DNA of 64,000 nt from Chloroflexota bacterium. GTDB taxonomy: Bacteria; Chloroflexota; Dehalococcoidia; GIF9; UBA5629. Positions within the stretch are counted from its first letter, which is position 1; each line of letters begins with the position of its first letter. The notes below the pieces were generated by a model. It was not told the DNA's origin. It did not search any database and saw only the letters and a list, made by a program, of their open reading frames with translations. The translations under genes and the position numbers were made by a program. Below are positions 58,464-64,000 of this stretch, one piece after another. The DNA lies in NCBI GenBank assembly GCA_016865855.1, contig VGNX01000004.1:1-64000 (forward strand). The letters run 5' to 3'.

Positions 58464-58574
58464 CTCAATCCCGCTACGCTAGTATGATAATGCAAACAAA
58501 GCGGCAGATGCAAATTCAGACTTACTCGGCAATTTTGTCTCAATCGCTAATATTCACAGAAACCTCATGCGGTC

Positions 58575-58596
58575 TTCATAAAATGTTCACATTCGC
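58575..58596 (+). promoter_or_regulatory. Pho-box-like direct repeat upstream of rrf2
   Basis: TTCATA at 58575 and TTCACA at 58586, 11 bp apart, the phasing of PhoB/OmpR-family operators. The 25 bp from 58575 match 21 of 25 positions of a site at 63613. Confidence 0.5.
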
Positions 58597-58709
58597 CTGC
58601 TGTTGTTTGTAACTGCAAGGGCAACTATGGCGGCTGTGGCTATGGTGTCTAGCTTTTTGATGGACCAACCCACTATTTTATGAAGATGACGCTGTGAGCC
58701 TCCAAAGGC

Positions 58710-58738
58710 TTGACAACCTTTCCATTGTATTGTATACT
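58710..58738 (+). promoter_or_regulatory. Promoter of the rrf2-type regulator
   Basis: TTGACA, 17-bp spacer, TATACT: a near-consensus sigma-70 promoter 37 bases before the gene. Confidence 0.75.
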
Positions 58739-58740
58739 TT

Positions 58741-58759
58741 GTTGACCATAATAGTCAAC
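58741..58759 (+). promoter_or_regulatory. Operator palindrome, probably Rrf2 autoregulation
   Basis: Perfect inverted repeat GTTGAC-CATAATA-GTCAAC lying over the predicted start of transcription. Confidence 0.65.
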
Positions 58760-58775: not shown

Positions 58776-59219
58776 ATGAAACTATCTACCAGAGGTCGGT
58801 ATGGCACCAGGGTGTTGTTGGATCTGGCTCTGCATCAGAGAGGAGGCCCGGTTCCGTTGAAAGACATCGCTAAGAGGGAAGAAATCTCGCTTTTGTATTT
58901 GGAGCATTTGGTCACTCCCCTTATAGCGGCGGGGCTAATAAGAAGCACGCGGGGTGCTCGTGGTGGCGTCTGTTTGGCCAGGTCACCTGAGGAGATAAAA
59001 CTTAGCGAAGTGGTTGGGCTGCTTGAAGGCTCGATTGCTCCGGTCGACTGTGTTGATGACCCTAAAGCGTGCTCTCGTTCTGACCTTTGTGTTACCCGCG
59101 ATATATGGGTTGAACTGAAAGAGGCAATGGATGGGGTTTTAGAGTCTAAAACCTTGCATGACCTGGTAGAGATGCAAAAGAAGAAAGGTAGAACAAATAT
59201 GGTAGTGTATGACATTTAA
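58776..59219 (+). CDS. Rrf2-family regulator (CymR/IscR-like)
   Basis: A 147-residue Rrf2 winged helix (MKLSTRGRYGTRVLLDLALHQRGGPVPLKDIAKREEISLLYLEHLV ... STRGARGGVCLAR) with the three-cysteine IscR-type motif C-x7-C-x5-C (DCVDDPKACSRSDLC, about 89-103) that can hold a Fe-S cluster. It is placed just upstream of cysK, which also fits CymR, the cysteine-responsive Rrf2 protein. The operator and promoter above suggest self-repression. The end of its coding sequence is partly duplicated at 63753-63830. Confidence 0.9.
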   Translation: MKLSTRGRYGTRVLLDLALHQRGGPVPLKDIAKREEISLLYLEHLVTPLIAAGLIRSTRGARGGVCLARSPEEIKLSEVVGLLEGSIAPVDCVDDPKACSRSDLCVTRDIWVELKEAMDGVLESKTLHDLVEMQKKKGRTNMVVYDI

Positions 59220-59228
59220 ACTACCCAG

Positions 59229-59366
59229 GAACACAGTGTCCATATCTTTGAGCTTTTATAGAACCTGAATAGTCAGGGACTGACCTTAATTATAGTCACT
59301 CACAATCTGGAAGTGGCGAAAATAGCTCATAAGGTAATCCATTTAAGAGATAGTGAAATTGTCTAA
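59229..59366 (+). pseudogene. Relic of a MacB-type ABC-transporter ATPase C terminus
   Basis: Between rrf2 and cysK one frame reads HIFELL, a TAG at 59259-59261, then NLNSQGLTLIIVTHNLEVAKIAHK and ends VIHLRDSEIV plus TAA at 59364-59366. This is the switch-His (VTH) and last strand of a LolD/MacB ATPase, without Walker A, signature or Walker B regions. The remainder of the gene is missing, so it is a fossil left by deletion. It begins right after a spacer that also follows the Rrf2-tail copy at 63.8 kb. Confidence 0.8.
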
Positions 59367-59407
59367 AAACTTTCAATGTTTATTAAAAACACTGAGGAGG
59401 TGAACCA

Positions 59408-60421
59408 ATGGCAAAGGTAGCTCAAAAAGTTGAGAAACTTCGATACAAGACTATAGAGATTCCAAAGCTAACCAGGGGTATAGCCAAGGACTCCACTGAG
59501 TTAATCGGGAACACGCCACTGGTCAGGTTGAACCGGATAACTAAGGGTGCAAAAGCAGAGGTAGTAGCAAAGCTCGAGTCCTTTAATCCTATAGGGAGCG
59601 TGAAGGACAGGATAGGTGTGTCAATGATTGTTGATGCCGAGGAGAAGGGGCTAATTAACAAAGACACGGTGATTGTCGAGCCTACCAGCGGCAACACTGG
59701 TATTTCTCTGGCTTTCGTCTGCGCTGCTAGAGGGTATAAGCTCATCCTTACTATGCCCGATACTATGTCTATGGAAAGGAGGCAGCTCCTAGCTATTTTT
59801 GGAGCGGAGCTGGTGCTAACTCCTGGGGTGGAGGGGATGCCGGGGGCAGTGAGGAGGGCGGAACAACTGGTGGCAGAGAACACGAAATATTTTATGCCGC
59901 AGCAGTTCAAGAACCCAGTAAATCCAGAGGTGCATCGCCTGACCACGGCTGAGGAGATCTGGAGGGATACCGATGGTAGAGTGGATATCCTGGTAGCTGG
60001 GGTTGGGACCGGCGGCACCATTACCGGCGTGGCCGAGGTGATAAAGAAAAGAAAAGCCGATTTTAAAGCTATTGCTGTTGAGCCGGCCGATTCACCTGTT
60101 CTTTCCGGTGGCAAACCTGGCCCGCATAAAATCCAGGGCATCGGTGCCGGTTTTGTTCCAGATGTTATGAGATTAGACCTTGCTGATGAGATTATTAAGG
60201 TTATCAACGAGGATGCTGGAATAATGGCCAGAAGGCTAGCTAGAGAAGAGGGGATACTAGGAGGCATATCCTCGGGAGCAGCCACTTGGGCAGCGCTAGA
60301 GGTTGCTAAAAGGCCGGAGAATGTTGGGAAGCTTATAGTGGTAGTCCTGCCCGATACGGGAGAACGCTATCTCAGCACTTGGCTTTTTCAGGAGCAATTC
60401 AATTCCGCATCCAATATCTAA
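59408..60421 (+). CDS. cysK: Cysteine synthase (O-acetylserine sulfhydrylase)
   Basis: A 337-residue fold-type II PLP enzyme with GAGGAGGTG upstream. Lys66 in SVKDRIG binds [25 protein letters not shown] and [18 protein letters not shown] line the active site. About 28 residues longer at the N terminus than usual CysK. Condenses O-acetylserine, made by CysE downstream, with sulfide. Confidence 0.93.
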
Positions 60422-63590: not shown

Positions 63591-63634
63591 TTCACCAGAT
63601 TTTCATCATAAATTCATAATATTTTCATAATCGC
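63591..63634 (+). promoter_or_regulatory. Four 11-bp-phased TTCA direct repeats
   Basis: TTCAC at 63591, then TTCAT at 63602, 63613 and 63624: four consecutive half-sites exactly 11 bp apart, the pattern of a PhoB/OmpR-family operator. It lies about 50 bp upstream of the truncated ABC-permease start. Confidence 0.6.
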
Positions 63635-63682
63635 CTGTTATTATTCAAGAATTACGGCAAAATAGAACTGGAAGGAGAGACG

Positions 63683-63823
63683 ATGAAACTATATCAAGTG
63701 GTTGTGAAGGATGTGATATGCAGAAAAGGACGAGTATTATTCGCTAGTCGGGGTTTTAGGAAAAAACCTTGCATCTCTGATAGACATGCAGAAGAAAGGG
63801 ACAGCAGACATGGTAATGTATGA
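63683..63823 (+). pseudogene. Truncated ABC-transporter permease fused to rrf2 debris
   Basis: ATG 63683 (GGAGAG ribosome site) opens MKLYQVVVKDVICRKGRVLFAS, which I recognise as the N terminus of a MacB/FtsX-type permease of this lineage. After about 21 codons the similarity ends and the frame reads through other sequence to TGA 63821-63823 (46 residues). Probably non-functional. Confidence 0.65.
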
Positions 63824-63830
63824 TATTTGA
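63753..63830 (+). pseudogene. Fragment of a second Rrf2 regulator
   Basis: In another frame the DNA reads VLGKNLASLIDMQKKGTADM then VMYDI and a stop, clearly the C terminus of an Rrf2 protein (the intact gene ends DLVEMQKKKGRTNMVVYDI). The spacer after the stop (GGAACACAGTG) is also shared. Only the last 25 codons are present. Confidence 0.8.
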
Positions 63831-63884
63831 ACTTTTAAGGAACACAGTGCCCATTAAAAGCAATGTGAACAGGAGAGTATAAGA

Positions 63885-64000
63885 GTGAGCAAGAAAATTT
63901 TGGTATCAATTTTACTTTTTGGCTTAATTGTGACTGTGGTAGGTTGCAGTCAGGCAGGTACTACGTCTGATACTTCAGCCGGTAATTCGAGCGTTGTGAC
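63885..64000 (+). CDS. Lipoprotein, 5' part only
   Basis: A GTG start at 63885 with AGGAGAG upstream opens MSKKILVSILLFGLIVTVVGC, a lipoprotein signal with lipobox VVGC, then a Ser/Thr-rich linker (SQAGTTSDTSAGNSS). The window ends inside the gene. It may be the substrate-binding or accessory lipoprotein of the ABC transporter whose relics are nearby. Confidence 0.75.
   Translation, partial: MSKKILVSILLFGLIVTVVGCSQAGTTSDTSAGNSSVV

Follow-up and report, generated by a model that had tools for sequence, protein, structure and literature searches.

The four TTCA half-sites that follow one another at exact 11-bp steps at positions 63591-63634 of the window (the whole stretch of 64,000 nucleotides analysed here, from a Chloroflexota bacterium) form, as judged by comparative sequence analysis, a real and conserved operator of a known kind for which a candidate regulator and a regulon can be named. 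According to our main reading, to which we assign a probability of roughly 80%, this array would be the operator of an OmpR/CreB-type response regulator encoded at C55:7421-8107, which would govern its own operon as well as FtsX-permease/LolD-ATPase targets and would operate by class-II activation. Judging from its named relatives, the genome appears to belong to a Dehalococcoidia family (Chloroflexota) represented by metagenome assemblies. The array and its promoter element are:

63591-63634, plus strand: four-fold 11-bp-phased operator (four TTCA), predicted to have stood ancestrally at the promoter of a MacB/FtsX-type permease gene, homologous sites being found before permease-1 operons in G019, G025 and G026
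63636-63644, plus strand: extended -10 element TG-T-TATTAT, read from the sequence, with TAnnnT invariant at the same distance in 15 aligned promoters

The units of the array read TTCACCAGATT (63591), TTCATCATAAA (63602), TTCATAATATT (63613) and TTCATAATCGC (63624), which confirms the positions and the spacing of one helical turn given in a preliminary description of this DNA; such an arrangement is far from chance. No other four-fold array of a 4-mer with three or more different letters occurs in the window (periods 9-13); order-2 Markov simulations lead to an expectation of 0.05 per window (0.025 at period 11), and the frequency of TTCA predicts 8e-5 four-fold TTCA arrays per window and 0.002 per genome. 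Pattern searches of the entire genome (2.0 Mb) with TTCA-N7-TTCA-N7-TTCA returned two matches, both within this array, and none for the reversed control. Allowing at most one mismatch uncovered one further array beyond the pair found in the window, on the minus strand at C55:8616-8652; with a tolerance of three mismatches the 21 genome matches were at background level (17 in the controls). The second array of the window and the elements around it are:

58553-58596, plus strand: second four-fold array, between relA/spoT and rrf2, found at the same position in the related genome G003
58601-58606, plus strand: -10 belonging to the second array, degenerate: TGTTGT here and TATTGT in G003
58710-58738, plus strand: separate rrf2 promoter TTGACA-N17-TATACT, read from the sequence
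58741-58759, plus strand: inverted repeat GTTGAC-N7-GTCAAC just 3' of the rrf2 -10, largely kept in G003

The units of this second array are TTCACAGAAAC, CTCATGCGGTC, TTCATAAAATG and TTCACATTCGC, the second one reading CTCA; the preliminary description had under-counted it as a two-half-site relative. The third array is located about 50 bp before the gene of a small Cys/Gly-rich membrane protein, followed in order by the genes of an OmpR-family response regulator, a histidine kinase and a cation-efflux protein; the counterpart of this locus in G003 carries a ZIP-family gene between the kinase and cation-efflux genes. All three arrays are followed on their 3' side by CCTG and then, at equal distance, by a -10-like hexamer.

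The association between array and regulator is borne out by related genomes. Each of the 17 C55-regulator orthologs (at least 66% identity) with enough upstream DNA is preceded by the array, at 525-740 bp from the regulator gene and before the small protein where its gene is recognisable, against none of 10 paralogous regulators. Two additional regulator-operon sites in G026 and G029 bring the total to 19 genomes of the same family in which the array precedes an OmpR-family regulator/kinase operon, and the proposal that these repeats constitute a response-regulator operator gains support from this placement and from the CreB tag match described below. The site is present in 20 of the 21 genomes encoding the regulator versus three of the nine that lack it (Fisher p 0.0009). 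The pattern TTCAYN17TTCAYN6TTCAY has 42 exact matches in the family compared with one for the reversed-pattern control; it was substituted for an earlier pattern of four TTCA plus GCCTG that missed several regulator promoters since unit 2 is loose. Applied beyond the family, this three-unit pattern also matches a recurrent conserved stretch (TTCATAGCCAAGAAAAGTGG...), probably coding, and matches there were left uncounted. Placement of the repeats is non-random, and the rrf2 site is kept before its gene in one relative, G003. In an alignment of 15 promoters thinned of close relatives, units 1, 3 and 4 always read TTCA (2.00 bits), a constancy owed in part to selection since ortholog sites were chosen as the best TTCA score within up to 1500 bp, and unit 2 is loose; mean information is 0.76 bits in the spacers and 0.19 bits in the upstream flank. 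The -10 TAnnnT, which begins 15 bp 3' of the first base of the last TTCA, never varies in its T, A and T, and this element, which was unused in finding the sites, is free of the selection effect, as is the paralog control.

The candidate regulator combines a receiver and a Trans_reg_C domain (PF00072 + PF00486). Its best NCBIfam model is CreB, with 252.6 bits and thus below the cut-off of 273, and its DNA-binding domain resembles that of CreB more than do those of the other two OmpR-type regulators of the genome (74.7 bits versus 61.2 and 48.9). The recognition helices of the two proteins, YERTIDAHIKNIRQK in the C55 regulator and YDRTVDTHIKTLRAK in CreB, are closely similar. The cre/blr tag, TTCACnnnnnnTTCAC (PMC3660660), of E. 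coli CreB and Aeromonas BlrA shares with the array a TTCAC/T half-site, an 11-bp direct repeat and a regulator of the OmpR family; as a positive control, the exact tag was recovered upstream of E. coli creD. At all aligned sites, units 3-4 read TTCAY-N6-TTCAY and match this tag if Y is allowed at position 5. E. coli CreB activates genes that include the membrane protein gene creD. Here, by contrast, two tags stand in tandem with four half-sites, the second of them loose, the regulator is only 39% identical to CreB, the kinase is not CreC-like (141 bits versus a cut-off of 356, with BaeS scoring higher), creD was not found in the genome by a PF06123 search (assembly 91% complete) and the target genes are different. 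The C55 regulator would so appear to be CreB-like in its working, yet it is not classed as CreB. The envelope-stress system BaeSR offers another comparison: among the models matched by the regulator and the kinase, BaeR and BaeS stand near the top, exporters are among the targets and the BaeR recognition helix, RTIDSHIKNLR, is nearly the same as that of the C55 regulator. Both proteins nevertheless score far below the corresponding cut-offs (230 of 380 and 254 of 500 bits) and the periplasmic loop of the C55 kinase is short, with about 45 residues. Metal sensing by conserved cysteines of the kinase loop was considered and is not firmly supported, as these cysteines differ among orthologs.

The TATTAT hexamer at 63639 lies 15 bp from the start of the last TTCA of the array. 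Reading of the sequence revealed no TTGACA-like -35 at this promoter, none is conserved among the aligned array promoters, and the extended TGn motif is seen in the genus and near relatives. The promoter is probably live because it retains four perfect half-sites, the TG-T-TATTAT element and a good ribosome-binding site further 3'. An array placed before a -10 that lacks a -35 corresponds to the class-II activation arrangement of PhoB-like proteins. We propose that phosphorylated regulator monomers would bind head-to-tail on the TTCAY half-sites, one per 11-bp turn, the four half-sites accommodating two tandem dimers and amounting to a doubled cre/blr tag. At a promoter with an extended -10 and no -35, the array would occupy roughly positions -60 to -17, and the bound regulator would recruit RNA polymerase in place of the -35 element. 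In this manner the regulator would control its own operon, comprising the small Cys/Gly-rich membrane protein, the regulator itself and the kinase, in addition to the FtsX-permease/LolD-ATPase transporter operons. We infer that the C55 regulator binds the array, that it activates rather than represses, and that the stimulus is a metal/thiol or an envelope signal.

The same regulator might instead act as a repressor occluding the -35 to -17 region of the extended -10 promoter, since half-site 4 falls at -27 to -24, inside the -35/-10 spacer and downstream of the -35 position, and extended -10 promoters can function without a -35. Cre/blr tags and Pho boxes of such geometry mostly activate, which counts against repression. 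With no competing -35 conserved and a CreBC regulon that is mostly activated (PMC3962086), we consider repression unlikely.

The genes surrounding the two window arrays have been extensively rearranged:

58776-59219, plus strand: intact rrf2 (CymR/IscR-like), PF02082
59244-59366, plus strand: 3' remnant of a LolD-like ATPase gene, left after the loss of lipoprotein-permease-ATPase from this copy
59408-60421, plus strand: intact cysK
63683-63823, plus strand: broken ORF of 46 codons, of which the first 15 or so (63683-63727) are permease-like and are followed by an out-of-frame rrf2 remnant
63750-63854, plus strand: 3' rrf2 remnant and intergenic DNA, 77% identical to 59133-59243
63885-64000, plus strand: start of a lipoprotein gene (149 aa, OB-fold-like; runs to C4:64334)

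The unbroken order site-rrf2-lipoprotein-permease-ATPase-cysK is encountered in G003. In the first copy of the window, rrf2 is joined without interruption to the final ~40 codons of the ATPase gene, after which comes cysK. The second copy continues beyond the window, where the lipoprotein gene is followed by an FtsX-type permease, a LolD-like ATPase, a truncated cysK of 275 aa (C4:66237-67064) ending just before an intact second permease gene, and a second ATPase. The duplicated ATPase-3'/cysK segments (59244-60231 and C4:66073-67060) are 82.5% identical. Duplication within the lineage is favoured by the protein identities, 91% between the two cysK copies against 83% between the intact copy and its G003 counterpart. 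The start of the 63683 ORF is homologous to the intact permease C4:67077, which carries the MacB_PCD (PF12704) and FtsX (PF02687) domains, and a 45-bp alignment links it to L037:11078. The array had been described as standing beside a truncated permease in a rearranged envelope or uptake operon; both points were correct, the rearrangement consisting of duplicated, partly deleted rrf2-lipoprotein-permease-ATPase-cysK modules. Since synteny with G003 is preserved on both flanks, a chimeric assembly (contamination estimate 5%) is unlikely. The genes following metB lead to permease 1 in G011, which suggests that metB-permease 1 is an old neighbourhood. The permease gene once served by the 63591 promoter is now broken and joined to an rrf2 remnant, and transcription from the intact promoter would most likely cross the 46-codon stub and continue into lipoprotein-permease-ATPase and beyond.

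A neighbourhood so full of duplicated and decayed gene pieces, together with the degenerate -10 of the rrf2 copy, could indicate that the two window arrays are merely an old rrf2/permease promoter copied along with its module and now functionless. We find this very improbable: the two window copies have little in common besides their half-sites and GCCTG, a third copy on another contig precedes an intact regulator operon, and in the 63591 copy all four half-sites are perfect and the extended -10 is good. Moreover, the array is kept across genera while its flanks are not, sites in many genera sharing half-sites and little else, so that local duplication alone was rejected. Binding of the arrays by Rrf2 was rejected as well, since rrf2 possesses a separate palindrome (58741-58759), a probable Rrf2 autoregulatory site, and most arrays lie far from rrf2. 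The leader extending from the second array to rrf2 (58620-58690) is strongly conserved with G003 and may contain an 18-codon ORF (MAAVAMVSSFLMDQPTIL).

The Pho boxes of PhoB/PhoP in E. coli, B. subtilis and Streptomyces, and the sites of M. tuberculosis PhoP (TCACAGC-N4), resemble the array in their head-to-tail 11-bp direct repeats, present in several copies before the -10 and occupied by tandem dimers (PMC4832192). On its 7-bp motifs with 4-bp spacers, M. tuberculosis PhoP forms tandem dimers, and trimers or tetramers on longer arrays (PMC4832192). The Streptomyces Pho box GTTCACC-N4 resembles only the first unit. A Pho box controlling a phosphate regulon through the PhoB/PhoP-type regulator of this genome would match the array in its four 11-bp direct repeats, and contig C50 indeed encodes an OmpR-type regulator with a PhoR-like kinase and a pst-phoU cluster, but we reject this scarcely credible reading since pstS of the same genome (L034:6244) and a second promoter of the pho/pst locus (L034:5606) each carry four 11-bp repeats of TTWAMA and not TTCA, pattern search detected no TTCA array before the pst genes of this genome, and the arrays occur without phosphate genes. 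A PhoB/OmpR target had originally been envisaged: the OmpR family has held and PhoB has not, the closest known analogue being CreB. The TTWAMA repeats (G000, C50) represent the real Pho boxes of the genome, with the geometry of the TTCA array and a different half-site.

Returning to the CreB-like operator, its predicted regulon extends to several other targets. Sites are located before lipoprotein-permease-ATPase operons in G015, G024 and G029 (via rrf2 in G003), before operons encoding DUF6803-permease-ATPase-FtrD-like lipoprotein (permease 1) in G019, G025 and G026, and before two lone homologs of the small protein (G013, G019). About five of nine genomes have a site at their permease-2 operon and the site is absent from the permease-1 operons of G011, G012, G014 and G022; the locations of transporter sites are only partly conserved. 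In G023 a site (L154:3229) separates the gene of a SHOCT protein from that of a copper-translocating P-type ATPase whose N-terminus is rich in His and Met, which hints at copper or some other metal as the possible signal. FetABCD of the Campylobacter fetMP-fetABCDEF system (PMC10783030) similarly associates two FtsX-type permeases, an ATPase and a DUF2318/FtrD-like protein. It differs in that no FetM or FetP was seen adjoining the operons described here, which are under putative two-component operator control instead, and the FtrD-like protein of the relatives is a small lipoprotein.

Tentatively, and with more doubt than conviction, these elements could be assembled into an uncharacterised CreB-like two-component system of one Dehalococcoidia family, in which a doubled cre tag (units 1, 3 and 4 strict, unit 2 loose) would couple metal/thiol stress to FtsX-type ABC transporters, cysteine-synthesis genes and metal pumps, one promoter having been captured by a neighbouring operon when its original gene broke. 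The regulator-operator pair and its small predicted regulon are testable, in a group whose regulation has hardly been studied by experiment, and the locus would exemplify a promoter that outlived its gene and was then reused. The E. coli CreB tag may represent an old half-site common to distant OmpR-family regulators.

In sister genera, L074, L079 and L147 carry a second regulon of TTCAT-N6 arrays beside a different OmpR-type regulator (37-39% identity), so the half-site alone is insufficient to name the regulator. These arrays are found near genes for LTXXQ/Metal_resist or trypsin-like proteins, and the sites of L074 and L079 continue into GTGTTAAACT-like sequence.
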